Positions 40,055 through 62,663 of a stretch of 64,000 bases of DNA are shown here, one piece after another. The stretch covers positions 19,794,824-19,858,823 of the forward strand of contig OX422184.1 in NCBI GenBank assembly GCA_949130485.1, read 5' to 3'. This DNA comes from Agelas oroides. Lineage: Eukaryota > Porifera > Demospongiae > Agelasida > Agelasidae. The translations under genes and the position numbers were made by a program. The first letter of the stretch is position 1, and every line of letters starts with the position of its first letter. The notes beneath the pieces were generated by a model, which saw nothing but the letters and a program-made list of their open reading frames with translations, had not been told where the DNA came from and did not search any database.

Positions 40055-41851
40055 CGTTCGCTACTACTATTACCACTTTGCAGATAGTCTGAGAGGTGTG
40101 GCTTGCAAGACTATCTTTCTAGCAAAAATTAATCATTAGTGAACTTTAACCTTTCATGCAAGGGTACCTACCACACCTGGGGCTTGTTGGGGGGTAGGAG
40201 AGGAATTTAGTGAAGCGACCCCCAATACCTGGGGCATGAACATGTGTACACATATCCCACTCCTTCCTGTCATAGCTACGCAGTGTTGCCAGATCATGAA
40301 CAAAATTCACAGGATTATTAACATTCTGCTTGAACGGGTTAGTCTCATTTTGCCTAGTCTCATTTTGTCATTTAGTCAGGTAGCAGACAATATGCGAATT
40401 ACTGGCCAAGTAAATTTAAAGATCTGATAAAAAAAATTAAAGAAGAGCTGTGGGCATGTGTGGAATGTTCCATGGACAAATACTGTTTCAGCTTCTGCTA
40501 GCTAGGTGTTTTTATGTTGTTATCGCTTGTGCCTTTCTTGGTAGAGAGATGCTCTCATCAATTTGAGGGTTGGTAGCTTCGCTGCTACTTCATTCATGTC
40601 TGGTCTTCCGGCTACCAGATGGACTTAGGGTTGAATACTTTCCCTGACCTTGCATGCATTTAAGTGCTGCAGTAATCTTGTGTGCTTCCAGTTCAAGATC
40701 ACAGAAGAGACTGCACCAAGAGTAACTTTTGATATTGGGTATCAAAGAGTAATGTTAACTTAGCTGTTTGCTAAATTTACTGAGTAGGTGAAATGGATCT
40801 TTAGTAGCTAGGCGAAATGAGATTAGGTGAAATTGCTTGATAAACCACCAAATTTTTATGAACATTTAGCTAGCTATGAACAGTCATGGACTTTTTGTGA
40901 ACTTACCCCAGCTGAAGGTAACTGTAAGACCCCAAGTTTAGTGAAATGTGTGCAGAAGTACACAAATACAATGCAAAGGCAACAAATAAACAACAAATTT
41001 CAACTTGACTGACACTGACACCCATACACTGAATTTTGGTCTCTTCGTATTGTACTTTAATTTGTAAATTTTTTCTTACCCAACAACCACCCCAGGTATG
41101 CAAGGTGGGAGCATAGCATGGGGCTAGCCATACACTATAGTGTATGTCTTGCTGTTCACGATACTGCTAAGTAAACTCATGCATGTCTTTTAGCTGTAGC
41201 AACTTATAAGAGTGCCGCAAAGCAGGGTGAATATATGTGGAGATAGCCCTTCAGTGCCATCATGCACACACCATCGACAAGAATCCCAGCTTTCCCCCGG
41301 CTGCTAAACTACACAGTTAGCTACACTGAAAGCTGCATAAGTGCATCTTGAAGATGATGTGATTGTACCCAAGTGGGAATGCAGTGTCAATACATCTCAT
41401 TTGGTACACTTGGGATTGAATTGTAACGGTTGGGCACCGCCCCTTGTGTGATCTGTGTTACATGACGCAGACTAGGCAGTTCAATGAATTTTGTGCAGAA
41501 TAAAACTGTGTGTCAGATATTCGCCACCGGGAGGGCCAGGTCTCTGTCCCATGGACTCTAAAAACACCCCCTATTCAACATCGACTTATGCACCTAGCTA
41601 TCACTGTTATGCACCACCCTCCCAGGTTGGTGGTGGGTGGGGGGTTTGAAGGGGGTTTGACTCCAGCACATTTGTGTAGTTCAGACTTGATGAAAGGGAT
41701 TGCTCCTGTAGAAGGGAATTGATAATTGCCTCCCCTATTACGCCCCACCTTCTACCAACCTAGGAGGGTGGGGCATAACAGTGATAGCTGTATTAAAGGG
41801 GCGAGGCTAGTCTGTTAACACGGTGGAGTACTCCTACTGGCAAAATCCGAG
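40055..41851. promoter_or_regulatory. Shared upstream region of two head-to-head HSPA12-like genes
   Basis: The two initiator ATGs (40,054 minus; 41,852 plus) face away from each other across 1.8 kb, so promoters for both must lie here or overlap it. TATTAAAGGGGCGAGG at about 41,793-41,808 is a possible TATA-like site about 50 bases before the plus ATG. I found no clear canonical heat-shock element (nGAAnnTTCnnGAA). An inverted repeat with arms AGCTATCACTGTTATGC-ACC (about 41,597) and its inverse (about 41,770-41,792) lies close to the plus start. No other gene is visible. Confidence 0.5.
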
Positions 41852-42636
41852 ATGGCTGTTCATACGTATAACGGTCGTTCGAAGGTGGACAGAAAGGTTT
41901 ACAGGACTACGCCACAATTTATAACTACCATTGATTTCGGAACAACGCACTGCTCTGTAGCCTATCTCCTCCGCCCAGACCTAGAATCTAATCCAAGCGA
42001 AGTCGATCCCACCGTTCTGACGCTAGACAACGCCGGGAACAAGCGAGTACCGAGCTGCATCCTATTCGATCCCAGTGGCAATAAGATGGCCTTTGGTCAG
42101 GAAGCCCGAGAGCAATACGCCGACCTCGATCACGAGGAAAGACCCCAGTATCACTACTTTGAACACGTGAAGAAGAACCTGCAGCATGATGAGGTAACAT
42201 ATAACCACATGCCAATGCTGCGAATGACATAGTTAGGTAAGCATGCTTGCATGGAAAGGTCCGCACTACGTTTTATAAACTAACTCGGATGCGTATTAAA
42301 TGCGAGACATCCCAGATTTTACTGTCATAGCCCTTGAGTGATGCATTAAGCTACACCATTTCCAATGCCTTATGCATGAGTGTGTTGTAGTAATTGAGGC
42401 GGAGGGATCTAAGCTGGGCTTTGGATCATAATGTTTCAAGTATAAATTGCACCCCAAGATGCTCAAAGTAGCATTTCAAAATATGTGGGGAAAATGTACT
42501 TTATGCTGCAGTTTTACCAAGCTTTCTGGTTAGTACTGCCAGCCACATAGTCACCCTGCTTTGCGGCACTCTTACAAGTTGCTACAGCTGAAAGACATGC
42601 ATGAGTTTACTTAGCAGTATCATGAATAGCAAGACA
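41146..42636. repeat. Inverted repeat arms flanking the first exon of the HSPA12-F-BAR gene
   Basis: The arms are 41,146-41,230 and 42,551-42,636, both containing ACTGCTAAGTAAACTCATGC (inverted in the second) and AGAGTGCCGCAAAGCAGGGT. Between them lie the proximal upstream region and exon 1 (41,852-42,193). They look like two copies of one element inserted in opposite directions. Confidence 0.7.
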
Positions 42637-45600
42637 CACCCTCCCAAGCTGACCCATCTGGTGGGTGTGACTAAATGAAATCACTGTAAGGCGTAAGTTA
42701 TGGTGTCTGCTTCACCGTGAACATGTGCACAAATGTCAGTCACAGGAAGTTTGCAAAATGATGAATAGAAGCTGGTGGTATTGTGTTAGGTGTTATTGTA
42801 TTACTAGTGTTGAATACGTTTTTATGTACATGTATAGGCTAGTTTAAGCTGTACTATGCTTTTACTTCTTCAGCATTTTGACAGGAACCAACAAATTTCT
42901 GCTTTGAATGGCAAGCAGTTCTTCTTGGTAGATGTTATTGCACACATCCTTCACCATCTGAAGGACCGACTGCTCACAGAAGTGAGAGATTTTGGCTACA
43001 AGGACCTCCAAGCTTCAGACATCAACTGGGTGATCACAGTACCAGCTTTTTGGAAGTCTGGGGGAAAACGCATGATGCGTGAGGCTGGATACATGGTTAG
43101 TCCAACCTCAATTTGCAAAAGCATAATTACCAGAGCTAGGAAGTTGGACATGCTTGTATAGGTTTTCAGGAAAGGCTTGCTGATAGATCTGTTACAATAA
43201 GCATAAATTGTTCCCAAGCTAAGCTAACGTGAAGAGCAGTAAAAATTCGACCAGAAATATAAATAGAGTGCTTAATTCCATTCCTGAGCTCTTTTTGCAC
43301 ACCCTGACTGCTACGTATCAACTCTTGCTTATATTCCAGTTAACATGCCATATTTTATGGTTACCCACCAATTTGAGTTTGTTACCAGGCACTCCAGCTT
43401 ATATAATTATGTTATATATACATAGTAGAGGTGTATATGGCTAATATATTATACCCAAGACCATTTTGAAGCTTGAATCGATGTGGCTAGTGTCATTGTG
43501 CAGTGACTGTGTTGCTGCTATGCTTAGGCCACTTCTCTGCAGTCAAGGCTAAGTTGGACCCATGACGAAGGGCCTTTCACTCGCGCCAACTTGAAACCAA
43601 GATGCTGTTGGCGCTCGGCCATGATGCCAATGAGCAGCTAGCTTGCTACCTAACCGCTCTCGGAAGTTGGCGATCATGAAACAATGATTCAAGCTGGCAG
43701 TAGAACGCCCAGCCTCACAGTTCCATTGGCAGTGGCGGCAACGACTCATGGAACACAAACTGGTCTAGCACTATCCCAGGATCCACTGCCTGGCGAGTGA
43801 AATTATTGTAAGCATCCATCAGGGTAGTGGCTAGCTACCTAGCTGGAAACAGTAGCGGTGTGCATGGTGTGTTCCACACGCCATTTAAGCCCTGTGTCAC
43901 TGTACAAACAAACTGGAAAATTTGTGTAAGGCTTTTGCTGTTATGCTAGTCAGGGTTTCATACAGGATTTTTTCCTGGGGGGTTGGGGGAAACGTATATA
44001 GATGCGTGCAAAGAGTGCATGCACGCGTTGGTACACCCGCTAGATTTTTTGGACATATTGAAGGACAAGAAACATCAGATTCAGCTATAATACATTAAGC
44101 CCATAATTATGCCCCCTATTGTAGCAGTTGAGGCAATTATCACATCATAATTTCTGGGAGGGAAATCCCAGTGCCCCCTCCACCCTCTGTATGAAGCTAG
44201 TAGTCAGTAGTGAGTACAGTACAGGGGCTCTAAAGTGCTGGCAGTAGCTCTCTTGAGTGAAATATAAGCAAATGGAATGTGTGATGTCATGTGTGATGTT
44301 ATGCCAGCAGAAAAATCTCTTTGAGTTGCTGTGAGGGTTGAGCATGATGAAATAGTGTTGTGGCTGGTGAGGGGAAGAACAAAAGCTTCATTCCTGGGGA
44401 AGGTGAACAATGGCATTAACTAATATGCACTCAGATCGGATGTCTGTTGCTTCGGCTGGCCTGGCTATATTGCGTTCATTATTACTTTTATCTTGCACGT
44501 TAGGTGTTTACATTTAATGGCAAGCTCAAACTTTTGTAATTTTGAGTTTGTCGTATTTTGCGAGTACCACTTTTAGTGCTATCGCCTAGTGCTACAAGTT
44601 GGTGGGTGGGGTTTTGGCAACAACAGTGGATTACTGACAGAATTTCTTGTTCCTGAAAAGTTATGCACATGGAGCAAGGGTTGGCATATAGAGCGTTTAC
44701 AGGCCTTAAACATGTCACTGCTGGACAGTATTTTGCAACGATAACCATAAAGTCAGTAAACATTCAGCCATTCCACTTCCAAAGCAAAAAAAACAGTAGA
44801 ATGTAATCATGCTCACAGGTCTCATGCAGAGCATTTTGTACTGCATGAAAAATGTGGATGTGTGAGACCTGGAAATGAGGCTATTGCAGCGATCCAATTT
44901 AGACTCCATTTCATTGTGATTACTAATTGTGGGTACTGTTTTTAACAATTAGCTCGCTAAAGTCACTTAATTTAGTACCCATAATTGAAAGTGACTTCAA
45001 GGTAATGCTACAAGTCAGAAAAGGATGTGGAGACTTTATGTTCAGTGAGGAATTCATCTTTCTAATGCATAATCATCATTTTAGGCTGGTCTGTGCTCAA
45101 ATTCAGAGCCTCCGTCCATTTGCATTGCCACTGGAAACCATGACCCACCACAAGGAGAGAAATCACCAGAGAAACTGTTGCTTGCTTTGGAGCCTGAATC
45201 TGCAGGTATTCACTGTCAACACGAAGCGAAGGTGGCCATTAAAGGGTCGCAATATTTAGTGAGAGCCAAAAAGTACCTTGTCATCGACATTGGAGGAGGT
45301 ACAGCTGATATTGCCTCACATCACATTGTAGGAGGTTGTATTGAAGAAATAGGGCCACCAGCTGGTAACTTCTGGGGTGGAACAACTGTGAATGAAGAGT
45401 TCTCAAAATTTCTCGAAGATTTCGTTGATGATCCAGAGTTCTCACGCTACATTGAAAACAGCTCTCCTGAGAAGCAAACACGACACAAAGTAGATCTGAA
45501 TAAACTTCTTTACACCACATTTGAGACACAGAAAAGGCAGTTTGGTTCAGGTGAAGTTTGTAAGAGCTACATTGTTAAATTTCCACGCTCATTTGTGAAG

Positions 45601-48600
45601 CTCTATGAAGACTCCCTTGTTAGAAAAGGAACTTCACTCAATTCAAAGGGAGATATGTCTGTGAAAGTGGAAGATGACGGAGAGGTGATGCGAATCACGG
45701 ACTCAAAAATGGCTGAATTCTTCCAACCTGCTTTAGATGGAATAATGAAACTCATTGAATCCTATTTACGAGAAAACAAGATTGCCAGCACAATTGACAC
45801 AATCTACTGGGTTGGAGGCTTTGGAGGTTGTGAATATCTTCGCAATCAATTAGAAACAGTCATAGAAACAACTTTTCGAGGCTGTACGTACCAATTTCCC
45901 GTTCCACCTGAACCTGAGCTTGCTGTGACGTTGGGAGTTACCGTTTCTCACTATGACCCAAGTATCGCCCTAAAAAGGAAGGCCGATGCCACTTATGGCA
46001 CTGGAAATTTTGATGCAGTCCTTCATTGCCCCCTCTTCAAAGAATCTGATGAAAAATATCAACAGTTAAATAGTTTTCATGCTTTTGTTAAAAGTGGGGA
46101 TGAGATCTGCACAAATGAGGTCTTTGTCATGACCTTCAGTGCACGTGGAAAGGACCAAAAGAGTGCCACTTTTCCAGTGTATGCAACATTTCAGAAGGAT
46201 GTGAGGTCCACAGCAGATAAAGATGTACACAAGCTTGGGGAGGTTACTGTCGACATGGGAGGGTCTGGCTTAGATCGTGTGATTGAACTGGTGTGTGACA
46301 TAACTCCCACTGAGATTCATGTTCAAGCTCGAGACAAAACATCAGGAAATGTACAAAAAGTTGTGGTGGACTTTCTTTCATCTGGTAAGTAACCTAAAAG
46401 TGTGGAGTGTATCAGAACTGAAGCATAATGAAAGGATTTACTTATGGCATTGTATGTATGTCTGACCAAGTGTGAAAAGAAATTAGAGTCTGAGCATTTG
46501 CATTTATATATGCCATACAGTCCTGAAAGGAATCCATGTGGCCTGCAGGCATACGCATATAACAAAAAAAATGAAACAGAAAAGGAATAAAATTAAAAGT
46601 TATGAATTGTTCTGCGCTACAAACCAAAGGAACACTGTAGAACCTCAAGCAGTATGAGGACAAGCAATCAACTTCGCTAACTATTAGCTACTTTTACCTC
46701 CTGTTTATGAAACCATGCTATCAATATTTATGTGGCAGTTCTGGGTAGAAATCGAATGTTATTCCATCATGTATTTTTTCGCATTTTAAGTGCTGTAGAG
46801 CAGAACTTCTGCTAAAGGCAGGGTTTATTATGCTGCATAGAGCATACGATTCTATGCAGCACATATGAACTTCACCGTTAGTGGAAGTTCTGCACTACAA
46901 CGCTTCAAATGTGGTAATTTAACCAGAGTAGAAAAACCAAACATTATTTATTCCATTGCGTATCGGAATAATTGAACAATGTTCGATTTCTACCCACGAC
47001 TACAATTTATATAATCATGTATATGCTGACTATCTGCAAGAAAATCTAAATGTGAAAAGCTGAAGCGTAACTCACTAATTCTGTTCTGTAATGAGTTGTT
47101 AGTGTAGCGGTTACAGCAGTACAGGGAGGACTTAAGGTTCTTGTTATGTACTTTGCACAATCTCTCCCTCTGTGTGCTTCAGAGACACTTGTACCTCCAG
47201 CTCATCCTGCCCCAAAGCCTCCCACTCTGGTAGCCCCAAAACTGTCAGTTTCTCCAAGTTGTTCATCACCATTGATCCCTGCCACTCCTCCCCCCCTCCC
47301 GAAGACTGTAGTCCTCACCACAGACACTACTGTTAAGGAGGTGCGTACATTGTTCTTGCATAAGTGCAAATGCTATATGCCAATTATTTTTTTGCAAAAC
47401 CAAAAAGTACACTGTCCTGTAATTTTGTGTTTGAATCTCAGCATAAATTTTTATCCTGCAGTTTCACTCTAAGTTGAAACATCAACTTACTGCTTTGCAG
47501 CTGAAGCATAATGCAGAGGTGGAGTTCTTGGAAGACATGAGGTTAGCAGGGGAGCAAGGAATGTAGGGAGGGAGGGAAGGGAAGGGAAGGGAAGGGAAGG
47601 GAAGGGAAGGGAAGGGAAGGGAAGGGAAGGGAAGGGAAGGGAAGGGAAGGGAAGGGAGGTGGAGTTGCTGATTGGTTATTTCTCCACTTCACAGATCATT
47701 CACAAAGCAGAGATCAACTATTGAGAAGAAATATGCACAGGTGACTCTCTTAATGAGCACAACACACAAGTCTTGGTAGTTATGTACTCTCACATGGCTT
47801 TTTTTGTCAGTGTTTGTGTGGAAGAGTAAATGAGGGTCACTATTATGATGCACCCACTCCCTCCCTCACCTCTCCCAACACACCCTCACCCCTACTACTC
47901 ACTCTTTCCCCCCCCCCCCCCCACCCCCATATGCCACCACACTCTCCCCCGTCACTCCCCTCACCAGAGTCTTCAGAGATTAACACAGCAGTTTCTGAAC
48001 AAGATGGAAATTGAATCTCCCCCAGAGGATGTCGGTGTTGATAGAACTGAAAACAGGTATCAGCACTTTATGCAGGGAAGTGGGGATGGTGATAAAGAGG
48101 GACAGAGGGGGGTTACCAAATAGGCTTCCTTTCACAAGATCAACTCTCATGAGATCAATTTGCTACGAAATCATGCAACTCAATTTTTTTATGTTGAAGA
48201 AAGGTTATTTTGAACACTTAGCAAAATGTTTTGATCCTGTTGAACTCACCAAATATTTCTTGAACTTAGTCACATTCCCCGGGCCTACCCATCCCGGGAA
48301 CAAGGCTAGCACAAATCATACACATTTCCGTCTCCCCCCAATCCCCTCAAATATATACACACACACACATACACACTCCCCTCCCTGACACTCTCTCTAC
48401 ATGCCCACTAGGGGTCTCCTAGAGATATGGAAGATGATGTTGGAGAAGACAGATGAGATTGCGAAGCAACATTTGGGAGTGGCAGATGTGATGCTCTCAC
48501 AGATTTCGGAGAAAATGAGGCAACAGAAGAGAATCAAGGAACAAACATTTAAGAGGGTGAGTGGAGGGTAGTCTCGTCCCCAGACCCCACCTTCTCACGA

Positions 48601-51600
48601 AGAGAAACGGTCTGGTGAACCACCTTAGTCGACTTTCTTGGGTTAGCGCACGCTTTTGCGACAGTGTAACCTAGCAACGTTTTGCAGCAAACCCACTCAA
48701 AAAAGGTACGGATACTCAAATGGAGATCAACAAATTTTACTGTCGTAATAATTACCAATCTCACAATCTCATTGGTACTTACCCCTGTTTGGGAATAAGC
48801 CCAAGAAATTCGACTTCGTTCAACAGACTGTTTCCTGCTGGGAGGCACACGCGGGCTGGGCACAAGACTGAGTGGAGGGGTGGGAGAAGAGAGGATGAGG
48901 GGAGGGGAATGAAGTTGCTGTGCTGTGGTCTAAAGAAAATCCTGTGATTTATCTTGAGTACAGCAGCTGGTCAGCATGTGACTTGTACTGGAGAGTGATT
49001 ATGTATCTCTGTCATTGTCTCCTTAACCAGTGTTTTGAAGTAGCACAGAAGATGAACAGTGAGCTGCTAGAGTCTGTGAAAGAAATGAACACAGTAGGTC
49101 ACACCATGTTCACTGCTGGTGTCCTTTCACATACTTTTACACAAAATTTCCCCCTCTTCCACCTCTTTCTCCTTCCACACCTCCCTCTTCCTCCTTCCAC
49201 ACCCCCCCTATCCCTCCTTCCACCCCCCCCCCCCTTCCCCATCTTACTCCCCAGACTAAGAAGTCTTACAGTAAACTTGAGAAAGGACATGAGGACATGA
49301 GAGAAAGTGATGGTGAAAGGTAGGGATGGTGAGAGGGAGGAAGACATAGCAAGAGAGAGAGGGTAGCAAGAGAGAGGGATGGTGAGAGGGAGGGAGGAAG
49401 AGACAGCAAGAGAGAGGGATGTTGAGAGGGAGGGAGGAAGAGACAGCAAGAGAGAGAGGGTAGCAAGAGAGAGGGATGTTGAGAGGGAGGGAGGAAGAGA
49501 CAGCAAGAGAGAGGGTTGCAAGAGAGAGGGATGGTGAGAGGGAGGGAGGAAGAGACAGCAAGAGAGAGGGTAGCAAGAGAGAGGGATGGTGAGAGGGAGG
49601 GAGGAAGAGACAGCAAGAGAGAGGGTAGCAAGAGAGAGGGATGTTGAGAGGGAGGGAGGAAGAGACAGCAAGAGAGAGGGTAGCAAGAGAGAGGGATGTT
49701 GAGAGGGAGGGAGGAAGAGACAGCAAGAGAGAGGGTAGCAAGAGAGAGGGATGGTGAGAGGGAGGGAGGAAGAGAGAGCAAGAGAGAGGGTAGCAAGAGA
49801 GAGGGATGGTGAGAGGGAGGGAGGAAGAGACAGCAAGAGAGAGGGTAGCGAGAAAGAGGGATGTTGAGAGGGAAGGAGGAAGAGACAGCAAGAGAGAGGG
49901 TAGCGAGAAAAAGGGATGTTGAGAGGGAGGGAGACTCCTGCACGAGATAGTGAGAGAGTGGAGGGAGATCTAGAGATGGCAGGAGAGTGGGATGGTGAGA
50001 TGGAAAGATCACTTGTGGGTGCGATAATTACATAATCCCTGATGTATGGATCATTAGATATGCAAATATTATGTCTAACCATCCCTCCCCCCTCTCTCCC
50101 TCCCTCTCACCATCACATTCTCTTTTTGTCCTCCCTCCCTCTCACCATTTATCTCTTCCTTCCTCCCCCACAGGTTACATAAAAAAGATCTCAAGCTCCT
50201 TGAACCACTCACCTCCCCTGAAGAAAGTGACTGTAAAAGTTCTGATCAGCTTGAATCCTGTGAGAAAAGTGTGACAGTTGATCGAAACAACTACCTCCTA
50301 GCAATTGAGGCCACCAATGCACATCTCAGGAGGCATGATGATCATGATCTCCCTCATCTTATGGAGGTAAGAGGCAAACAGTTGCCTTTCAGCCAGGGTG
50401 TGCTTGTGTCAGCCGAGGTATGTTTGTGTCATCTGGGAGTATGTTTGTGTCAGCTGGTGTATGTTTGTGTCAGCTGGGGTATGTCTGTGTCAGCCAGGGT
50501 ATGTTTCTGTCAGCCAGGGTATATTTGTGTCAGCTGGGGTATATGTTTGTGTAAGCTGGAGTATGTTTGTGTCAGCTGGGGTATGTTTGTGTCAGCCGGG
50601 GTATGTTTGTGTAAGCTGGGGTATGTTTGTGTCAGCTGGGGTATGTTTGTGTCAGCTGGGGTGTGTTTGTGTCAGCTGCGAGTATGCTTCTGTCAGCTGG
50701 GAGTATGTTTGTGTCAAGCCAGGGTATGTTTGTGTCAGCTGCGAGTTCGCTTCTGTCAGCTGGGAGTATGTTTGTGTCAGCTGGAGTAAGTTCATCCTGC
50801 AGAGATGAGAGCTACCAGATGAAGCAGCACTAACGTAAATAATGCTTCATCTGGTTACTGTATAGTTGTTGTTGCAGGTTAAGGCCATCCCCAATTATAC
50901 TATTAGTGACACAGGAGTATGCAAATGTGTTGCCATAATTCATGGAAGTATCCAGAGCCCTATCCCTACATCTTTTTACACTACAGTTGCACTCTAGTGT
51001 GAAAAAGATGCAGGGGTGGGGCTTCGTATATTTACCTTCACTTTTATATCATCCCTATACCTTTTTTGCATACTTTTTGGTGTGTCATCCCTACATCTTT
51101 TTACATCACTAATGTTTTTACAATCTATTCACTTGGTAAGCCAATGACAGTTTAGTTATACTATGTAGTTTGTCTTCAGTAATAGCTTATCTTTATTTTT
51201 ATGTTTTATGTAAATGGTACAGTGGCGTTTAACCCTTTAACCACTGATGACGCATTTTGGTGTCGTCTGACTTGGCCGCATGTTATCAGTTGGCATAATC
51301 CGTTTTGAAGATAGGTTTTGCCCTATCATAAAAGGTGGGATAGGGGGAGGTGGGCGGGCATATTCAAGACATGCCGTGCGCATGGCGGCTGCCTTGGCTG
51401 GCTGTAGAACAGCTTTGGGTGGACCATTTCTCACCTTGTTAGCACAAATTAGCACAGAAACTACTCCTCTCCCCTTGTAGGGGAACTGTTTCCAGATCTG
51501 TAGGCAGTTTTTAGTCAGGCATAGCGTTCGCTGGTCGGACAGCTCTGACCATTGAACGCTTGCTAATGAGTGGGTCATGAACCCACAGAATATGTGTCAA

Positions 51601-54600
51601 AGAAGCTTTGGCTCAAGTTTCCAGTGCTAGCTTCAAGTGTAAATACGGACCAAAGAAAGCATCCTTAGCCTAAAAAAGAGCTCCAGTAAATAGCCTATGG
51701 TGGTTACAAAGTTAACTTTGGAGCCATATCTTGAGGTAAAATGAAGGTAGCCCAGGCAATATGCATATTTTGCAGTTGCTCTAAGGCTGCTCTTTAAGCC
51801 AGTAATTCTAACGTTTCTGTATTGCAAAATTTTATTTTTTGTTTGCACACGCTATTGGTAAATCAATGACTGCATTAGTTGTACTATGTAGTTTGTCGCT
51901 TATCTAAGTACATTTTACTGAATCTTCTGCTTTTACTATTCTGGTAGGAGATGGATGGGGAGTTGTATGAGAAGGCACGTGATGCTTACATCAAGTATGC
52001 CCAGATTGAGTGTGGTTTTGCCAAAAAAGTACAGGAAGAGATGGAAGACCTTCGAGAGCAAGCACACCTGGTGAGAAGGGAGGGGAAGAAGGGAAAATTG
52101 TGGAATGGGAGTGGGAGGGGTAGGATGGAGGGGAGGGAGAAAGGTAAGGCCAGCTAGAAAAACAGAGAGGATATTTATCAATGGATATTATGCTGATTTA
52201 CCAGAGTGAGTGTAGAGAAAGCTCTCCTTCACAATATATGTATTCTAGATCTACTTGTACTTGCACTACATATTCCCATACATATACACCTGCCTCCCTC
52301 CTCTTTCTCTCTTCCTCTCCATCCCTTCTCCATGCACTTCTCCCTCCTCCAGGTGAATCGGGAGTACGTTCTAGAATGTTTTGTTCTCAAGTACCCTATC
52401 ATCAGAGAAACTGCAGTCCTTAAGTTTGTGCCATCAGAGCAGGACCAGGTAATGAAACTGTCACATGTGGGTGTGTAAGGTGTAAGCAAACATGTACAGT
52501 AGAAACGTGGTTATCCAGATATCCATTAACCGGAAACTCGATTATCCGGATTTCAATTCTGACCATCACGTGATCTAAGATTGCTGATTAACGGTGTACG
52601 TGCACGAAATACGACAAAAGGCCAGCAATACAATCTTGTTGCTCAAGCAGCAAGATAGGCTTGCTACTAGGCCACCAAAGAGACGACGAGCAGTACTCGA
52701 CCTTGCCACTAAGGCACAGATCTACAAAGTCACAGCAACGTATGGGCTTAGCCGGGAGTACTGTCCAACATCCACGATCAATGACATCAAGACAAAGCAA
52801 GGTGAGATTGGTGCCTTTTTAAAGGTGAACCCCATCTAAAAAAAGTGAAGAACGCTAAAGCCACCCAGCTAAACCATCTATACAGTGTATTGCAATACTT
52901 GATGATCGCTTATCTGAATTTTTGGTTATCCGGAATGGGCTCGGTCCCAGTGGATCCAGATAATCGGGTTTCTACTGTACTTCAGCTTATTTCTGTTTTA
53001 CAGTCACTATACTTGGAAGTGTACAGTGGAACCCCTCTATAGTGGACACCATTGGAAATGAACATTTTGTCCATATAGTGAGGTGTCCCTATCTCAGGGG
53101 CTTTCAGTACATTTCTGGTAGGCATGGTACTGTGTAATCAGGCTGTTGAGCACAACATGCATGGCAATGTTTTTAGAGCCTTCCCTTGCTGTAGCAGGGA
53201 CTAGTACTATGAGTAACATAGCTAATCTAATGTCAAGTTGCATGTTTAAATCCTGGAATCCAGCAGTGATGGTAGATAATCTTGTGGAAAAGATTGATGA
53301 GTGTGCACTAAATTGGGGTTGTTAAGTAATGTCTGCATACAATTGGGAGTGTAAAAAGTGTTCATTATATGGAGTAGCAGAGTGTTTGCTATTCAGGGGT
53401 TGCTTAACCCTTTAACTCTTTAACAACCGTAGGCTATTTACTGTAAGTCTTTATTAGGCTATGGATACTTTCCATGGTCCGTATTTTCACTTCTGCTTGG
53501 AGCTAGCACTGGAAACTTGAGTCAAAGCTTTATTGACACATTCTCTGTGGGTTCTTGACCTTGGACACACCCACTCATTAGTGAGCATTCAATAGTCAGG
53601 GCCCTCCGACCAGAGAACGCTCCTCCGGACTAAAAGCTTCCTAAAATGCCAGAAATGGAGTCCCTACAAGGTGAAAGGAGCGTTTTCTACGCCCGTTTGT
53701 GCAAGAAAGCAGACAAATGGCCCACCCGGCATTGACCAGGGCTTTTCTACAGGCAGCTGCAATGGCCGCCATGCACTGTCAACCAGAGCAGCCAGAGGGG
53801 TGCACCAACATGCGGCCAAAAACTGACGATGCCAAAAAGCGTCATCGGTTGTTAAAGGGTTAACCGATGACACTTTTTGACATCGTCAGTTTTTGGCCAC
53901 ATGTTATCAGTTGGCGCAATCAAGTTTCCAGTGCTGGCTTCAAGCAGAAGTGGAAATACGGACCAAGGAAGGTATCCATAGCCTAATAGAGACCTCCAGT
54001 AAATAGCCTACGGTAGTTAAAGAGTAAAGTATTGAAGTGAATGGGCAGTCAGGATTTTCTGAAATGTCCCCTTTATGTCCGGCATTACGTATTGAGTGGT
54101 GTCCACTAAGAAAAAATACATCTGGTACAGAGAAACTTGGAAGTGAATGAATATCCAGCCATTATCTGCCCATGTCCACCCAAATTGACATCAATCAGGC
54201 CTGGCATTTGTCAGATCAACTAAATGTAGTTATGATTGAGATCACTTTCCCTTTCTCTCACAGGTTCAGCATCCAGATAAGTTAGACATTCACACAGGAA
54301 ATGCGTTGGAGATAGTAGAATGGAATGATGGTCCATGCAAGGAGAACTCAGGTGTATTAAGGCACAGGTGGAAAACAAAAGTAAGAAGTGGGGGTGTGTC
54401 AAATTTTTCTTGAAAGCCAATTAACACAGCCAAATTGCTGTTTTTGCCCTGTAGACTGGAATTGAAGTGGTCCCATCACAAACTCATGAGTGACGTTTTC
54501 ACTTATTTTGTGTGTGCATTGACAATGTCGTCAGACTATGGGTGGAGCCTTGGAGAGGGTGCAATTTTTCATTTTAAACTGAGAGACTAAAAATTGAGTT

Positions 54601-56295
54601 TTTTGGCATTATAAGGTAGAGGGAGCAGTGTGGTGCAAACGTTTTGTCAATATTGTGTACACTTTGACTCTGCCCATTTAGCCGTCTGCATGATTCAGAG
54701 ATTCATGATCCAAGGTCATAGTACCTTAACATACATTATTATCCAATTTGGAAAGTAAAAATATATCTAATTGGTAATCACGTGACCATTTATGATGTCA
54801 CTATAAAAAACACATTGCCAAAATACCATCTTCTCCTTTAGATATAAGGTTGAAACTATAGTTGAGGCAAACATAAATGTTTGATATTAACAAGATCCTG
54901 GATGGAAAACAAATCATATACCGTATTTCTTTGAATAGATGCCACCATCGAATAGTTGCCACCCTTGAATAGTCGCCACCCTCGAATAGTAGCCGCACAA
55001 TCGGAAGCTCTGAGCCAAATAAACGCCGCCCTCGAATAGTAGCTGCGGCTAGTAGGCTGCGCATACTACTGACGGCGTTAACAGTCATCACTGTACCGCT
55101 CGTACGCACCTTTTATCCAGCCGTCATTGATGTCTGCGGGTTTTCCAAGAAATAAACACTGCTCTCAAATAGTAGCCGCCCTCGAATAGTAGCCGCACGA
55201 AAACAAACAGCAAAAAATAGTAGCCACGGCGTCTGATCGAAGAAATACGACTGCATGGGCTGAAATTGGCTTGACCATCACTGGCTCCAATATAAAAGTC
55301 ATGTGATCACCATAGTGGGCATGGCCTCATAATTTTAGCTCTGGTGCATTGTGAAGTTTGGTGCCAGTTGTGACTATACTTTTTGAGTTTTTCAAACTTT
55401 GCATTTAAGGCACTGTTAATGAGCTGCCCATGCCTTAATGCTGCTGAGGATGGTTGGTGCAAGGGGAGAGACAAGTCAGGAAAGGAACGGTTACTCCCTC
55501 CGAGAGACATGCAGCCATCCACATACAGCAACAGTGACTATAAGGGAAATGGTAAGTAACTCAATTGGACATAGCCTTAATTAATACATACAGAATTGAA
55601 TCAGGGCCGTAGCCGCTGGTCCAGTCAGTCCGGTTTCAACCGGACCACTTTTCTCCTCACTCTGGGTTTGACATCGCCAACTAGCGCCATGGCTTGGTGG
55701 ACACCCACGCACGATCCACACACATACCGCATGCGCGTTGTAGGTGCCATGTGCTGAACTTGCGAGATTGCTGCAAACAGTGTGAACGAATCTCTTCTGA
55801 GTCCTCCTGATGAGCTACATCCTCCCAACTACTTTCTGTTCTTCAAGCAGTCGATTGGGAAGTCGAAACTATATAGTGCTGTATGCATGGCGCAGCAGGC
55901 AGAAAAGCCAGGATATTCATGCATGCGGACATCTGCTGTCTGACCGCCATTTTGGGCCAAAAAGTGGTCTCAGATGCGATCTCAGAGCATCTAAATTCTA
56001 AGAATTTTCTGGGGGGCATGCCCCCACCCCCTAGCTGTTGCGCACTTAAGCACCTACAATATTAACCCGACCACTTCACATCGGATGGCTGCGGCCCTGT
56101 GAATCCACAGTAGTAAACATCTGATCACTCATGTTAGATTGTAAAAGGTGGGAGGGTCACAAATGCAATAAATATCCTACAAGCAATGCAAAAAAAAAAC
56201 AATTTATGTCTGTCAACTGAACCACACATATGCACACATACATACAATACAACCATCACACATTTTGTATTTTTGTTTTGTAGACCACAAGCTGA
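41852..56295 (+). CDS. HSPA12-like HSP70 fused to an F-BAR domain
   Basis: Exons: 41852-42193, 42874-43095, 45085-46384, 47183-47340, 47501-47541, 47695-47740, 47968-48056, 48412-48556, 49031-49093, 49255-49319, 50174-50366, 51948-52070, 52353-52448, 54264-54380, 56284-56295. Phases 0,0,1,0,2,0,2,0,0,2,0,0,0,0 are all consistent; total 3,012 bases, about 1,003 residues. Residues 1-621: ATPase with DFGTTHCSVAY (28-38), DIGGGTADIASH (256-267) and YWVGGFGGCEYL (about 429), then a C-terminal part with EVTVDMGGSGLDRVIELV and EIHVQARDKTSGNV. Residues 622-674: Pro/Ser-rich linker. Residues 675-960: F-BAR domain (IEKKYAQSLQRLTQQFL, EIWKMMLEKTDEIAKQH, NNYLLAIEATNAH). A short tail ends TTS. HSPA12 proteins bind ATP; F-BAR domains dimerise and bend membranes. 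A nucleotide-gated membrane-shaping protein is inferred. The last tiny exon is the least certain. Reading through the donor at 46385 gives a stop after one more codon (isoform without F-BAR). Confidence 0.83.
46742..46996. mobile_element. MITE with GGGTAGAAATCGA ends
   Basis: The inverted ends are TGGGTAGAAATCGAATGTT and AATGTTCGATTTCTACCCA, 255 bases apart. A second inner palindrome (GCAGAACTTC/GAAGTTCTGC and TGCATAGA-TCTATGCA) lies at the centre. It is in intron 3 of the fusion gene, between the HSP70 part and the linker exon. Confidence 0.8.
47501..52448 (+). CDS. Exons encoding the F-BAR domain (FCHSD/nervous wreck/srGAP-like)
   Basis: Nine short exons (41, 46, 89, 145, 63, 65, 193, 123 and 96 bases) join in phase. 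The start LKHNAEVEFLEDMRSFTKQR and STIEKKYAQSLQRL match the FCH start 'f..eR..iE..YA..L..L'. The middle GLLEIWKMMLEKTDEIAKQH and a Lys/Glu-rich helix follow. VDRNNYLLAIEATNAHLRRH matches the 'RN-YLL-x-AATNAH' block of srGAP and FCHSD proteins. The final helices (YEKARDAYIKYAQIECGFAK; VNREYVLECFVL) complete about 285 residues, a normal F-BAR length. No SH3 or RhoGAP domain follows inside the window. Confidence 0.85.
47574..47658 (+). repeat. (GGGAA)n microsatellite
   Basis: About 16 units of GGGAA, starting 30 bases after the donor of the exon ending at 47541 and ending about 35 bases before the next acceptor, so it fills most of a 153-base intron. Confidence 0.95.
49320..49935 (+). repeat. 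55-base polypurine minisatellite (about 11 units)
   Basis: The period is exactly 55 bases in the central units (GGTAGC at 49,569, 49,624, 49,679 and 49,734). The unit contains GAGAGGGAGGGAGGAAGAGA and AGCAAGAGAGAGGG. The array starts at the donor of the exon ending 49319. The long minus-strand SLPPSLSPSLSLATL open frames are its reverse complement and not genes. Confidence 0.95.
50385..50790 (+). repeat. 20-21-base minisatellite (GTATGTTTGTGTCAGCTGGG)
   Basis: About 19 units with small changes start 20 bases after the donor of the exon ending at 50366. The plus-strand Cys/Val-rich ORFs (VCLCQLGYVCVSWG) come from the repeat, which has no stop in any plus frame. Confidence 0.95.
50960..51115. 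repeat. Copy of the CATCCCTACATCTTTTT element
   Basis: It contains TATCCCTACATCTTTTTACA, GTGTGAAAAAGATGCAGGG, TTTGCATACTTTTTGG and TCATCCCTACATCTTTTTAC, in the same order as one arm of the element at 12,797-12,950. Confidence 0.7.
51226..51850. repeat. Copy of the TTAACCCTTTAAC element
   Basis: It starts TTTAACCCTTTAACCACTGA, like the inner joint at 53,860 and the end at about 61,530. The part with ATTGAACGCTTGCTAATGAG and AAGCTTTGGCTCAAGTTTCC is the inverted form of 53,500-53,620. It lies in intron 11 of the fusion gene. Confidence 0.6.
52497..52977 (+). mobile_element. Internally deleted Tigger/pogo-like transposon
   Basis: The ends CAGTAGAAACGTGGTTATCC and, inverted, CAGTAGAAACCCGATTATCT are flanked by TA on both sides, the usual target of pogo/Tigger elements. 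Inside, on the plus strand, RPPKRRRAVLDLATKAQIYK and TSTINDIKTKQGEIGAFLK resemble the N-terminal helix-turn-helix of Tigger transposases (KRK-x-L-x-K-x-I; ST-x-x-DIKK). No catalytic DDE region remains. It is 481 bases long, within intron 13 of the fusion gene. Confidence 0.82.
53024..54113. mobile_element. Second pogo-like element disrupted by a nested TTAACCC element
   Basis: The left end is TA then CAGTGGAACCCCTCTATAGT, followed by GGACACCATTGG. The inverse of that inner part (AGTGGTGTCCACTA) is at about 54,094-54,108; the outermost right end has decayed. Inside, 53,404-54,028 is another element with inverted ends CTCTTTAACAACCGTAGGCT and its near inverse. Its centre (53,820-53,895) is a palindrome around GTTAAAGGGTTAAC, so it looks like two copies joined head to head. 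Confidence 0.6.
54919..55252. mobile_element. MITE with TACCGTATTTCTTTGAAT ends
   Basis: The left end TACCGTATTTCTTTGAATAG and the right end TCGAAGAAATACGA are inverted. The inside is an array of CGAATAGTAGCCGC and related units (GAATAGTCGCCACCCT). No protein is encoded. It is in the last intron of the fusion gene. Confidence 0.7.
55602..56099. mobile_element. MITE with CAGGGCYGTAGCC ends, copy 2
   Basis: The inverted ends are CAGGGCCGTAGCC and GGCTGCGGCCCTG, with TGAAT directly outside each end. Internal sequence is similar to copy 1 (10,763-11,267) throughout its length, with indels. Confidence 0.78.
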
Positions 56296-57765
56296 GAATG
56301 GAATGGGACGGTGAGGAAACGACGACTTATGTCTAGTAGATCAATACCACACATCTACCAACTTGAGCAATACAGGTGAATGGTGCAGAGGTTGCTAACT
56401 TACTAGAGATATCTGAGTTCTAGATTTTCTTTCATGTTGACGAAAGAAATACTTTTGTATATATTACTTTATTTTCATGATATACTGTTTTCTAATTGTG
56501 TATGGTGCTGATCACAGTATCATGTATAAAATTCAGAATGGAATGAGTGCAGTAAATAGTAAGTAGGTGTTGTAAGTCAATTGCTCTTAGCAAGCTGACA
56601 ATTACCAGGTAGCATCACCCATTCAAGGATCAGGAAAAAAAAGAAAGAAGTTGGAATGGGAACTCTCTGAGACTGTGAATCTTGGACAGATTTATGTTGC
56701 TGCAATTGAAATTCAGAACAATCACAGGATATACATAACACATGCATGAACAATCAACGAACCACATCTCCCCTGTAAGGGCTTAGAACACTGGGTGGCC
56801 ACTACCCATCTCTACAAGGCTGTAATGAGATTCACAACCAGTCCCAATGCATATATTGTGTTTGTTAATGAGATTCATAACCCATAATGACATTCATGAG
56901 GATCTTAGAGCGGTTTCAGTCCAGGTAGGGTTAGACAAAGGCTTAGGCCTCAAACCCACTTCAGCCACACAAATTATTGCCCCCAGATTTCAGCACTCAC
57001 ACTGACCCTTAATAGATAATATGCACTCAGTCTGGTCTTCTCTTGTCCAAAGTTTAACAGTAGACTCAAACAATGAGAAGACAGTACAAATAATGACAAG
57101 GAATGGCACTGTATGAACAATCATTGAACCACATCTTCCTGAAAAGGCAGGCCTAGATGTTATGCAAAGTCACCCACCCATGTGCAGGATGTTTTTTGGG
57201 CCAATATCATGCAGTCTTCATCAGCTGTGCTGAAGTGACCAGGAGGTAGAGACTGCTATCTCATGCATAAAAGCAGCCAGATAGCTGGCTTTAATTTATC
57301 CATATGGTAGGAAGAGGCTCCTTGAATGCAGTGTCTCTTCGTGCAGCTGTCCTTTGAAAATTGTTGCTATGATACATGCATGCGATTTTAATTGTCACAT
57401 GTTGTCAATGTGCAACAGAAGTACCAGACGTACCAAAAGTATTAATAGCGATTGCATGAACTGGGCATTATATAAATGAGGCATAATGCATGTTTGTATA
57501 GCTAGTAGATGTGAGGCAGATAGTGTGTATTTAAAGGCTGTGCATGCATAACTATCCTAAGCTACAGTGTATGTGACGTTAACCCTATGAACATAGTGTA
57601 GATGCCAAGTGAACTAAATTGTCTGGAGATTGAAAAATTTTGCCAATTAGCTAGTTGTCATCAGTATACATGGCTATAGTATTGGTGTATTTACACACTT
57701 TCGTCACTTTGTCCCAAAGCTTTCAAATAAATACATGTAATCTTAAGTTTATAACAGATAACCCC
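56296..57765. other. Intergenic region downstream of the fusion gene, no gene recognised
   Basis: Only short frames occur. The phrase TGAACAATCA(A/T)(T/C)GAACCACATCT is found at about 56,747 and 57,114 and also at about 22,493, indicating a low-copy dispersed repeat. I see no RNA gene or strong regulatory motif. Confidence 0.4.
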
Positions 57766-57771
57766 TTTTCG

Positions 57772-58710
57772 GGCGTCTCTAATCGTTGGACTGGAATGTG
57801 GAATGGAATGGTGGAATGGAACAGTGAATGTACACAGTTGCAGCTAACTTGTGTAACTGGCGCTGCTCAATCTAGGTTGAACCACCTCTAGGGCTGCTAT
57901 CTCACTGCAGAGGCTTTATGAGCAAGTACGCATACATGGTACTATAGCTAGTTTGAGCGCTTGATGCATGTGGCCATGGGTGTCTCTAATCGCTGGAATG
58001 GAATATGGAATGGAACGGTGGAATGGAAAATGGAATGGAACGGTGAATATACATACAGCTAACTCGTGTAGCTGGCGCTGTTCTTCAAGGTTGAGCTAGC
58101 TACTATGTGTCTAGGGCTCTTATCTCACCGCAGAGGCTGTATGAGCAAGTCCAGTGCATGTTAGCAGCATTCTTCCTTGTCTGGTATCACGGTCAGAACT
58201 CGGAGTCCCCGGAGACCAGCTACAGTGCCATACATAGGAGTCACGCTTACTACTGTGTAAAGGAAGGCTGCTACTAAGGTTGTGTGGCCAAGGATTGAGG
58301 TGCACAGACAAGACTGAAGCGAAGAAACTGAGGATCGAGCACTAATTTCTGCCATCAAGCACATTCAAGTTTGTCTACGAAGACTATAACTATGGTCTTG
58401 CGAAGCCAGACCCTTGTTTTTCGTTCGAGAGTCAGGCTTGCAAGACTAGAATAACAAAGCATCTGATGATGAGCCAGCAACGGTACCATGCTAGGATAAT
58501 GAAGCATGACGGTGGGCAATGCTGTACTTGTTCATAAAGCTTCTGCAGTGAGATAACAGCCCTGGAAATACACTAGGTAGTTCAACCTAGACTGAGCAGC
58601 GTCAGTTACACGAGTTAGCTGTAACTATGTATATTCACCGTTCCATTCCATTTTCCATTCCACCGTTCCATTCCATATTCCATTCCAGCGATTAGAGACG
58701 CCCTGTGGCC
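57772..58710. repeat. GGAAT-type satellite units: two direct copies and one inverted copy
   Basis: Copies at 57,772-57,935 and 57,976-58,155 (plus) and about 58,510-58,705 (minus) share CGTCTCTAATCG, (TGGAATGGAAC)n, GCTAACTCGTGTAGCTGGCG and CTCACTGCAGAGGCT. Copies 2 and 3 face each other around about 350 bases and could fold back. Copy 3 ends a few tens of bases from the broken end of the HSPA12-like pseudogene. Confidence 0.8.
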
Positions 58711-58744
58711 ATAGCCTATGGTTCACCCACAAGTTTCTTATTAG

Positions 58745-59529
58745 TGACTTTAATTTTTTCTTTTGTTTTATAAACACTTCTAATTCATTGTGAAGATATT
58801 TGCAGCCTCCAAAACCACCAACCCAATAAATTGTGTCAATTGTGCTGGCAATCTTGTTTTCTCCTAAATAGGATTTAATGAGGTTTGTTATTCCATCTAC
58901 AGCAGGTTTGAAGAATTCTTTCATTCTTGAGTCATGGATTCTCATTCTAGCACCATCATCTTCCACTCGCACAGACTTTTCTCCTTTTGAATTCACCTTT
59001 TCTAACAAGGGAATCCCCATAGAGCTTCACAAATGAGCGTGGAAATTTAACAATGTAGCTCTTACAAACTTCACCTGAACCAAACCGCCTTTTCTGTTTC
59101 TCAAATGTGGTATAAAGAGGTTTGTTCAGATCCACTTTGTGTCGTGCTTGGATTTCAGGAGAGCATTTTTCAATGTTGCATGAGAACCCTGGATTACCAA
59201 CAAAGCCTTGGAGAAATTTTGATGGTTGTTCCACCCCAGTAGTAGCCATCTGGTGGTGCTAATTCTTCAATACGACCTCCTACAATTTTATGTGAGGCAT
59301 TATCAACTGTACCCCCTCCAATGTCAACAACAAGGTAGTGTTCAGCTTTCACTACAAATTGTTCTCCTCTACCAGCCACCTCAGCCTTGTGTTGGCAGTG
59401 AATAGCTGCAGATACAGGCTCCAAAGCAAGCGACAGTTTCCCTGGTGATTTTTTTTTTGTGTGTCGTAGGCAGCAGATTCCAGGGGCAATACAAATGGGT
59501 GAAGGTTCTGAATCTGAGCATAGACCAGC
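58745..59529 (-). pseudogene. HSPA12-like pseudogene fragment (exon 3 only)
   Basis: On the minus strand, an acceptor TTTTAG at 59,530-59,535 is followed by GLCSDSEPSPICIAPG, ALEPVSAAIHCQHKAEVAGR, LVVDIGGGTVDNASHKIVGG, FEKQKRRFGSGEVCKSYIVK and YWVGGFGGCKYLHNE. This matches exon 3 of both intact paralogues, and the plus-strand gene most closely (SGEVCKSYIVKFPRSFVKLY). Two frameshifts (near 59,195-59,250 and 58,956-59,020) break it, and homology stops at about 58,770, just before the GGAAT-type repeat. No exons 1-2 or C-terminal exons were found nearby. Confidence 0.85.
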
Positions 59530-59535
59530 CTAAAA

Positions 59536-61990: not shown

Positions 61991-62004
61991 CCCACATTTT
62001 GAAA

Positions 62005-62612
62005 ATTTACCATGTTCATAGTACCATAGATAGTAGAGTGACACTGTCACTCTACTATCTATGATAGTACTATACATGTAAGTGCAGGCTCCAATCTGTC
62101 TGTACAGTCATTAAGTTAATGACTGTACAGACAGATTGGAGCCTGCACTTACATGTATAGTACTATGAACATGGTAAACTTTCACAGTACAATGAACATG
62201 GTAAACTTTCACCTTTTACTGTGACCTCCCATGTGAATGGGGCACATCAACATTGAAGCAGCCAGACAGGAGCCTGCAATGACCATGTTCATTGTACTGT
62301 GAAAGTTTACCATGTTCATAGTACTATACATGTAAGTGCAGGCTCCAATCTGTCTGTACAGTCATTAACTTAATGACTGTACAGACAGATTGGAGCCTGC
62401 ACTTACATGTATAGTACTATGAACATGGTAAACTTTCACAGTACAATGAACATGGTAAACTTTCACCTTTTACTGTGACCTCCCATGTGAATGGGGCACA
62501 TCAACATTGAAGCAGCCAGACAGGAGCCTGCACTGAGTGCAGGCTCCTGTCTGGCTGCTTCAATGTTGATGTGCCCCATTCACATGGGAGGTCACAGTAA
62601 AAGGTGAAAGTT
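62005..62612. repeat. Nest of long perfect palindromes
   Basis: Several inverted repeats sit inside one another: ATAGATAGTAGAGTGACACT and its inverse at 62,028-62,065; a CATGTAAGTGCAGGCTCCAA...GACTGTACAG hairpin at about 62,074-62,160; the same hairpin again at 62,327-62,415; and a 90-base arm ending AGGAGCCTGCACTGAGTGCA that inverts at 62,535. The block TGGTAAACTTTCACAGTACA is present in direct and inverted copies. Arms are nearly identical, so the structure is young or maintained. Confidence 0.9.
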
Positions 62613-62663
62613 TAGACAAAGACAATTAACATTCAGAAATATAATTTTAAGATTAGACTGAAA

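Follow-up and report, generated by a model that had tools for sequence, protein, structure and literature searches.

Exon structure of the locus

The window analysed here, a stretch of 64,000 nucleotides of the sponge Agelas oroides (contig OX422184.1), carries on its plus strand a gene model of 16 exons that runs from an ATG at 41852 to a TAG at 56334-56336 and encodes a predicted product of 1077 amino acids. All introns have GT-AG ends and consistent phases; splice sites were scored with small matrices of our own. The initial annotation likewise began at 41852 and joined its exons in consistent phase, but counted 15 exons and placed the gene end at 56295, short of the stop codon. Its description of a switch in intron density at the linker, where three large exons give way to a series of short ones, was borne out.

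Pfam analysis of the joined protein detected HSP70 at residues 27-298 (25.9 bits against a cut-off of 20.6) and, with exon 5 starting at 47501, FCH/F-BAR (54.2 bits, cut-off 27.8), and no RhoGAP, SH2 or kinase domain. As both domains score above the curated cut-offs and an unlinked gene can be aligned exon by exon with nine of the F-BAR exons, the exon series is more than a chance arrangement. At the sequence level, the exons of the gene model and their phases are established.

The HSPA12-like half

The first three exons encode the ATPase and its C-terminal part:

41852..42193, plus strand: exon 1, start codon and first phosphate loop (DFGTTH) of an HSPA12-like ATPase; open frame, donor score 7.8
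42874..43095, plus strand: exon 2, continuation of the ATPase domain; GT-AG, phase 0-0
45085..46384, plus strand: exon 3, remainder of the ATPase and C-terminal part, ending VDFLSS; 435-aa frame, compared with paralogue ends

Reading by eye revealed DFGTT, IDIGGGT and VGGFGG, which we take to be the phosphate-1, phosphate-2 and adenosine loops. With these loops and the Pfam match, the HSP70-type ATPase with a C-terminal part proposed initially is confirmed, and by its sequence the first half is an HSP70-family protein, presumably of the HSPA12 subfamily. A PDB search gave only weak matches to canonical HSP70/DnaK (best 9.8e-5), and none of the best 60 of 109 was named HSPA12. The predicted structure of exon 3 was unusable (pLDDT 35); the last 90 residues alone were modelled as strands (about 50).

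The F-BAR half is a copy of an FCHSD-type gene

Exons 5 to 13 encode the F-BAR core, and each has a counterpart in a gene on another contig (C5) of the same genome:

47462..47541, plus strand: exon 5, F-BAR start with the proposed acceptor (alternative 47501); similar to C5:11361795-11361873, acceptor score -0.4
47695..47740, plus strand: exon 6, F-BAR; C5 counterpart 11362041-11362086
47968..48056, plus strand: exon 7, F-BAR; C5 counterpart 11362414-11362502
48412..48556, plus strand: exon 8, F-BAR; C5 counterpart 11362592-11362736
49031..49093, plus strand: exon 9, F-BAR; C5 counterpart 11363154-11363216
49255..49319, plus strand: exon 10, F-BAR; C5 counterpart 11363356-11363429, one 3-codon difference
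50174..50366, plus strand: exon 11, F-BAR; C5 counterpart 11363533-11363725
51948..52070, plus strand: exon 12, F-BAR; C5 counterpart 11364149-11364271
52353..52448, plus strand: exon 13, final retained F-BAR exon; C5 counterpart 11364498-11364593

Sequence comparison identifies the second half as a copy of this FCHSD-type gene, with 215 of 296 residues identical (72-73%). The C5 gene encodes FCH, HR1-type and two SH3 domains. Its SH3 domains have human FCHSD2 (KIAA0769, which we take to be the same protein) as their best PDB match, which led us to reject an srGAP as the F-BAR parent. In searches with the F-BAR alone, srGAP2 (5i6j) leads as the nearest solved F-BAR, to which the window core aligns over profile positions 2-231 of 303; FES (4dyl) follows weakly (E 0.007). 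Unlike srGAP2 and FES, the window protein combines its F-BAR with none of the RhoGAP, SH2 or kinase domains sought with Pfam. Some F-BAR structure searches also returned influenza haemagglutinin, judged to be chance helix matches.

Similarity to the C5 gene begins at 47463. For exon 5, the small matrix scored the acceptor at 47462 lower than that at 47501 (-0.4 and 2.6, respectively), but the former stays in frame, adds 13 residues and extends the FCH profile match from positions 9-77 to 1-77 (60.4 bits). The start at 47462 is thus more likely than the 47501 chosen originally; the reading frame is kept with either acceptor. By eye, the open frame from 47463 offers no ATG ahead of the first helix. 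Because similarity begins only here and no such ATG precedes the helix, the F-BAR copy appears to need an upstream exon.

The nine F-BAR exons contain neither stop nor frameshift, have GT-AG ends and, compared with the C5 gene, give a dN/dS of 0.156 (bootstrap 0.10-0.24) at a dS of 0.98. A ratio of 0.16 indicates that the copy has been kept by selection; like the parentage, this is well established from the alignment of the two copies.

A degenerate tail follows the F-BAR core:

54264..54380, plus strand: exon 14, front half of the parental SH3-1 exon, then non-homologous sequence; tblastn 54264-54332, 57% identical
54385..55405, plus strand: stretch tested as part of an insert splitting the SH3-1 exon; similar to an abundant repeat over roughly the first 360 bases
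55410..55551, plus strand: exon 15 (weak acceptor, -1.2), rear half of the SH3-1 exon; tblastn 55449-55535, 59% identical
56284..56336, plus strand: exon 16 (weak acceptor, 2.4), C-terminus and TAG stop

For the insert repeat, a first look gave 1607 candidates, of which 40 were scored; the long matches besides itself were 77-84% identical. Owing to the weak acceptors at 55410 and 56284, the tail beyond 54380 is uncertain. Neither the coiled-coil exons of the parent nor, by tblastn, SH3-2 was found in the window copy. The full-length F-BAR described initially therefore holds for the core, but not for the parental regions behind it. Two SH3 domains C-terminal to the F-BAR, the arrangement of FCHSD proteins, are present in the C5 gene and were not recovered in the window copy.

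The junction between the two halves

Between exon 3 and exon 5 lie the following features:

46390..46392, plus strand: TAA, in frame if the exon 3 donor is unused; likely the ancestral HSPA12 stop, since paralogues L028, L029 and L030 stop at the same position
46586..46591, plus strand: AATAAA, possible polyadenylation signal inside intron 3
47146..47148, plus strand: ATG in the exon 4 frame, possible independent F-BAR start
47183..47340, plus strand: exon 4, a Pro-rich linker entered in phase 1 and left in phase 0; acceptor ranks 2 of 67 AGs, donor 8.4

The exon 3 donor at 46384, CTG/GTAAGT, overlaps an in-frame stop (GGTAAGTAA) and has the top score among 125 GTs. Exon 4 would act as an adaptor from the phase 1 of the HSPA12 part to the phase 0 of the F-BAR part. 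With thresholds placed just under the observed values, none of 600 shuffles and none of 38 real stretches of 1077 bases held an equally good exon in the needed phases; at looser cut-offs, 4 of 600 shuffles did. Supposing that exon 4 is simply a first exon, the chance of a usable acceptor at least as good as that at 47183 is about 0.07 (0.03-0.13 over five stretches), based on 52 such sites in 43,546 bases. A DNA search of the genome for relatives of exon 4 returned only itself.

The phase continuity claimed at the outset thus stands, in that a phase-1 donor meets a splice-compatible phase-1 acceptor. A separate F-BAR start near 47,100-47,500, named in the initial annotation as evidence against a fusion, is half present, in the form of the ATG at 47146 with its good donor at 47340.

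HSPA12 paralogues and their downstream modules

The close full-length paralogues L028, L029 and L030 stop exactly where the exon 3 donor lies. At this old-stop position, a donor scores 4.6 in L028 and 1.8 in L029, and L030 has no GT. Judged by eye, L028 looks spliced at phase 1 into further exons from a donor at the same position, and so does the same region of a minus-strand HSPA12 paralogue in the window. A downstream element, here called the 94-aa helical module, was common to 4 of the 12 close paralogues examined, co-oriented and within 12 kb downstream (0.02 expected, with 80 places compared by eye and the 12 kb limit chosen after the data had been seen). By its pattern this module presumably resembles a Death domain; that identity was not confirmed by Pfam, by a PDB profile search or by Foldseek, for which the model was poor (pLDDT 50, five helices). 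A Pfam Death domain does lie 3.5 kb downstream of L038, but as evidence it is weak, since such domains number at least 150 in the genome (870 candidates, 150 scored). Open reading frames behind L038 and L033 yielded nothing beyond this domain, with one L033 frame scanned and no Pfam match over the cut-off.

The L035 linker is clearly related to that of L038 (0 of 3000 shuffles). Homology of exon 4 to the paralogue linker exons was not significant (DNA p 0.11-0.74, peptide p 0.21-0.97), and no convincing remnants of paralogue linker or module exons were seen in 46385-64000. A repeat in intron 3 that also occurs in the L028 flank was considered as a shared intron and dismissed as a dispersed repeat (73 matches including the window's own).

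Against four of its sister genes, this HSPA12 copy has a dS of 0.38-0.55, compared with 0.98 for the F-BAR copy, which consequently looks the older of the two. If dS is not skewed by gene conversion or base composition, an older F-BAR copy must earlier have been expressed by some other route. The capture scenario of the initial annotation accordingly keeps its arrangement, an F-BAR copy downstream of an HSPA12-like gene, but the order of events is unsure.

One transcript or two

We infer that one mRNA spans 46384/47183 and encodes an HSPA12-F-BAR fusion, with a probability of about 0.55. This reading draws on the top-ranked donor, the second-ranked acceptor and their consistent phases, on the rarity of exons like exon 4, on an F-BAR under selection yet needing an upstream exon, on related HSPA12 genes that look spliced into other exons, and on the 94-aa module behind 4 of the 12 close paralogues. 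Against it stand a donor that overlaps the usual stop of the family, the lack of detectable kinship of exon 4 with paralogue linkers, the exon 5 acceptor of only -0.4 and the greater apparent age of the F-BAR copy. The ATG at 47146, the donor at 47340 and the AATAAA at 46586 make two neighbouring genes possible: an HSPA12 gene ending at 46390-46392, as its paralogues do, and an F-BAR gene with exon 4 as first coding exon and a promoter in between. The segment from 47146 to 47340 is the best of the four phase-0 first-exon candidates listed for 46393-47461, TATA-like TATATAA occurs at 47008, and an older F-BAR copy needed a start of its own. Such words as TATATAA and AATAAA are, however, common in AT-rich DNA, the exon 3 donor is the strongest in the region, and 47146-47183 reads as a pyrimidine-rich tract with CAG in the right phase, all of which leaves two genes a less likely arrangement, albeit the chief competitor.

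The apparent age difference would also suit a nested arrangement, with the HSPA12 copy in intron 1 of the F-BAR gene and the true first F-BAR exon upstream of 41852; the C5 parent probably has a tiny first exon about 5.8 kb before its second (candidate 11355910-11355939). As a blastn search with the C5 upstream region gave no counterpart in the window (best hit 25 bases, E 0.002) and the candidates listed for 30000-47461 include no obvious matching first exon, this nesting is quite improbable. Least probable of all is a decaying F-BAR pseudogene with accidental continuity, which the lost coiled-coil and SH3-2 regions, the repeat-bearing insert in SH3-1 and the weak last acceptors might suggest; nine intact exons and above all their dN/dS led us to reject it.

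Possible function of the proposed fusion protein

In the fusion reading, exons 1-3 would be spliced from the donor overlapping the ancestral stop, and the Pro-rich adaptor exon 4 would bridge to the truncated FCHSD-type F-BAR copy (exons 5-13 plus the degenerate tail). A plain HSPA12 protein may still come from a share of transcripts that terminate at the old stop. Dimers of the F-BAR core would anchor the protein close to endocytic sites, on membrane that is flat or gently curved. The HSPA12 part would meanwhile grip a client, such as a membrane cargo by its cytosolic tail, depending on ADP/ATP. Most likely, such a protein would serve as a nucleotide-gated adaptor at the membrane and would not bend it. 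According to PMC6057269, the F-BAR of human FCHSD2 has a flat shape and associates with the planar membrane that surrounds clathrin pits; with an FCHSD-type parent, an adaptor for flat membrane or endocytosis is more plausible than the membrane remodeller first proposed. Human HSPA12A, according to PMC6345817, binds the SorLA tail in an ADP/ATP-dependent manner, delays SorLA internalisation and acts as a trafficking adaptor for SorLA.

With HSPA12A and HSPA12B, the window protein shares HSP70-type ATPase motifs and a C-terminal part behind them; unlike these two, it probably extends across a Pro-rich linker to an F-BAR core. Unlike FCHSD1, FCHSD2 and Nervous wreck, the window copy of the F-BAR gene apparently has an HSPA12 N-terminus in place of its own first exon. 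If encoded by one mRNA, an ATP-driven client-binding fold would be joined to a membrane-scaffolding fold, and such a natural fusion to an endocytic F-BAR would offer a direct test of HSPA12 proteins as endocytic adaptors, comparable to HSPA12A with SorLA. The expanded HSPA12 family appears to recruit new C-terminal modules, and a splice donor overlapping a stop codon would be a simple route to fusion. Tentatively, and at slightly less than even odds, we propose a new two-domain class in which an ATP-switched HSPA12 client-binding unit is permanently tethered to a flat-membrane F-BAR, in a family whose C-terminal modules are exchanged through phase-1 splicing at a donor over the old stop, so that a few bases there decide between plain chaperone and fusion.

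A search of an open literature library, judged by title and start of abstract, found no protein pairing HSPA12 with F-BAR, in agreement with the original statement that none combining both folds had been described. The terms 'F-BAR' and 'BAR domain' are absent from the main text of PMC8195603. In that paper, lineage-specific immune-type proteins of oysters, of the TRADD-N/Death type, have HSP70 among several C-terminal modules, an architecture unlike that of the window protein.

A candidate HSPA12-F-BAR gene

On the plus strand of the window (C2:19794824-19858823 of the 259 Mb genome), 16 exons lead from an ATG at 41852 to a TAG at 56334-56336 and encode 1077 residues with consistent phases throughout. 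The initial annotation had joined 15 exons; their joining in phase was upheld and all introns are GT-AG, while the number of exons had to be raised by one. That the joined protein carries both an HSP70 part and an F-BAR part was borne out by Pfam, as in a 1064-residue version HSP70 (25.9 bits, cut-off 20.6, residues 27-298) and FCH (54.2 bits, cut-off 27.8) each exceeded the cut-off. Exon 5 had been started at 47501, which the acceptor matrix favours (2.6 vs -0.4), but homology suggests a start at 47462 instead, and our choice of 47462 rests on homology since the matrix prefers the other site. Similarity to the related gene on contig C5 begins at 47463, immediately 3' of another AG, and the start at 47462 adds 13 residues in frame, with FCH then matched from profile position 1 at 60.4 bits. 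The last two exons, where the acceptors were weak in the same matrix, are provisional; the final one (56284-56336) predicts a C-terminus TTYV, which we take to resemble a class I PDZ ligand.

Origin of the F-BAR half

When the F-BAR part was compared with the genome (E up to 10), 20 matches were obtained, 10 in the window, eight at C5:11361770-11367886 and two weak ones elsewhere. The joined C5 exons encode FCH, an HR1-type region and two SH3 domains. Since both SH3-2 and SH3-1 matched human FCHSD2 best in PDB (2dl7, 6gbu, 2dl5), the C5 gene is regarded as FCHSD-type; human FCHSD2, like human HSPA12, was compared through PDB chains only, and KIAA0769 is FCHSD2. Nine exons of the window F-BAR pair with the C5 gene exon by exon, with 215 of 296 aligned residues identical and a single 3-codon difference. 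Between the two, dS was 0.98, dN 0.154 and dN/dS 0.156 (bootstrap 0.10-0.24), whereas in a copy that had evolved without selection after the duplication the ratio would be expected to move towards 0.5 or more.

Downstream of window exon 13, tblastn found no counterparts of the C5 coiled-coil exons, linker exons or SH3-2, and the SH3-1 exon is present as two pieces (54264-54332 and 55449-55535) separated by an insert that includes an abundant repeat. The C5 gene likely has a tiny first exon at C5:11355910-11355939 with a TATA-like word upstream; searching the window turned up no counterpart of this exon. About 8 kb upstream of the C5 gene, a long frame on the minus strand resembles hydroxymethylbilane synthase by eye, and the genome-wide search with exon 3 gave no HSPA12 match near this gene.

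The HSPA12-like family

Exon 3 of the window gene had 42 matches in the genome. The HSPA12-like expansion is large, covering C2:19.25-20.41 Mb, C3:18.5 Mb, C20 and C21, with many copies in the C2 cluster around the window. As close copies we counted 12 long ones (L027-L038, 64-100% identical), leaving out shorter pieces on C1 and C2 whose identity was similar. The four full-length ones, L027 (the window's own), L028, L029 and L030, all end at the same position, where VDFLSS is followed by two residues before the stop, and the remaining eight copies are shorter. Among 15 distant full-length copies (L039-L053, not counting the shorter L054-L056), the stop follows directly after DFLS, DFLSA, DFLSS or DFLCA in nine and within three more residues in two, and four have different ends. 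Because full-length copies mostly end there, the window donor CTG|GTAAGTAA overlaps the stop codon of the family. The dN/dS of the window HSPA12 copy against four close copies was 0.40-0.45.

Two truncated copies, L032 (C3:18524557) and L036 (C2:19664678), likewise have GGTAAGTAA at their ends, which would fit a stop-overlapping donor that predates the candidate chimeric gene. On the minus strand of the window at 58625-59529, HSPA12-like exon-3 fragments lie in several frames, probably a pseudogene.

One transcript or two genes

Splice sites were scored with matrices built from 25 donors and 26 acceptors taken from the C5 gene and from further introns in the window, the tested sites being excluded. 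The exon-3 donor at 46384 (10.2) ranks top among 125 GTs between 45085 and 47182, and the acceptor of exon 4 (7.3) second among 67 AGs between 46400 and 47500. The top acceptor, 47305, opens no exon in the needed phase, and only 47183-47340 qualifies. The HSPA12 part exits in phase 1 and the F-BAR part is entered in phase 0, and exon 4 bridges the two. With thresholds placed just under the observed values, an equally good exon in these phases appeared in none of 600 sequences obtained by dinucleotide shuffling of the 1077-base gap (4/600 with looser cut-offs) and in none of 38 real stretches of that length. Weighing these features against those that favour two genes, we give a fused HSPA12-F-BAR transcript, possibly alongside a plain HSPA12 form, a probability of roughly 0.55.

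Two separate neighbouring genes, which we consider less likely, would accord with the donor-overlapping stop being the norm in the HSPA12-like family and with an AATAAA and an ATTAAA, possible polyadenylation signals, within 210 bases after the HSPA12 stop. The frame of exon 4 is opened by an ATG at 47146 and closed by a donor scoring 8.4, a TATA-like word lies at 47008, and exon 4 has no other copy in the genome by DNA search and is not detectably related to the known paralogue linkers. Furthermore, dS of the F-BAR copy (0.98) exceeds that of the split of the window HSPA12 copy from L028, L029, L031 and L036 (0.38-0.55); being older by this measure, the F-BAR copy would once have worked without its present HSPA12 neighbour. 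The apparent age gap could, however, stem from gene conversion in the HSPA12 cluster or from composition (GC3 0.46 vs 0.57 in C5). If exon 4 were merely a first exon, only its acceptor would have to be accidental, but acceptors scoring at least 7.2 occur 52 times in 43,546 bases, a chance of about 0.07 in the usable 185-base frame.

Intron 3 of the candidate chimeric gene contains, at 46725-47010, a dispersed repeat with inverted halves (73 matches including itself).

Possible function of a fusion

Human HSPA12A is described as binding the cytosolic tail of SorLA to a greater extent with ADP than with ATP, and as delaying SorLA internalisation (PMC6345817), and human FCHSD2 as having a flat F-BAR that binds planar membrane around clathrin pits (PMC6057269). 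By analogy, a fusion of the two types may anchor an ATP-switched hold on receptor tails at the edge of endocytic sites. A client-binding role would fit, as the C-terminal part, absent from eight of the 12 close copies, is retained in the window gene. The window gene has no intact SH3, so recruitment of the customary FCHSD partners would not be expected.

In oysters, expanded immune-type proteins are reported to include HSP70 domains among their modules (PMC8195603). Chimeric genes built by joining exons within an expanded family are a known kind. The HSPA12 and F-BAR pairing appears new, and no protein combining HSP70 or HSPA12 with F-BAR was found among the openly licensed PMC papers listed, judged by titles and abstract starts.

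Paralogues probably splicing into new exons

A second HSPA12-like gene lies in the window, its exons placed by eye:

40054-29376, minus strand, second HSPA12-like gene, truncated after the ATPase part
about 40054-39749, 37318-37100 and 34345-33445, minus strand, its HSPA12-like exons
33100-33044 and 31302-31201, minus strand, its linker exons with phase-1 ends
29659-29376, minus strand, its last exon, a 94-aa module

Its donor reads CTG|GTAAGT, and the borders after exon 3 are in phase 1 (by eye). L028, which is full-length, has a weaker donor (4.6) at the donor position of the window gene, followed by an open phase-1 exon (by eye). As paralogues thus show linker and phase-1 exons, splicing out of HSPA12 into additional exons appears, at the sequence level, to be a regular feature of the family.

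The 94-aa module has 80 matches in the genome, whose places were compared by eye. It is co-oriented within 12 kb downstream of four of the 12 close copies (L028, L031, L035 and L037), against a chance expectation of 0.02 that was computed with those four copies and a 12 kb limit set after the data were seen; both families cluster. The distance to the module is 10.8 kb for L028, of which a minor part was read. The module looks Death-like by its pattern, but Pfam, PDB profile and Foldseek searches gave no support for such a fold. On the minus strand at C21:3009350-3009784 (2351-2785 of L060, a stretch near the HSPA12 copy L038), Pfam detected a Death domain at 26.7 bits (cut-off 22.6), co-oriented and 3.5 kb downstream of L038 after a phase-1 linker exon. 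Genome-wide, 870 first-look Death domain candidates were obtained, and all 150 that were scored exceeded the cut-off.
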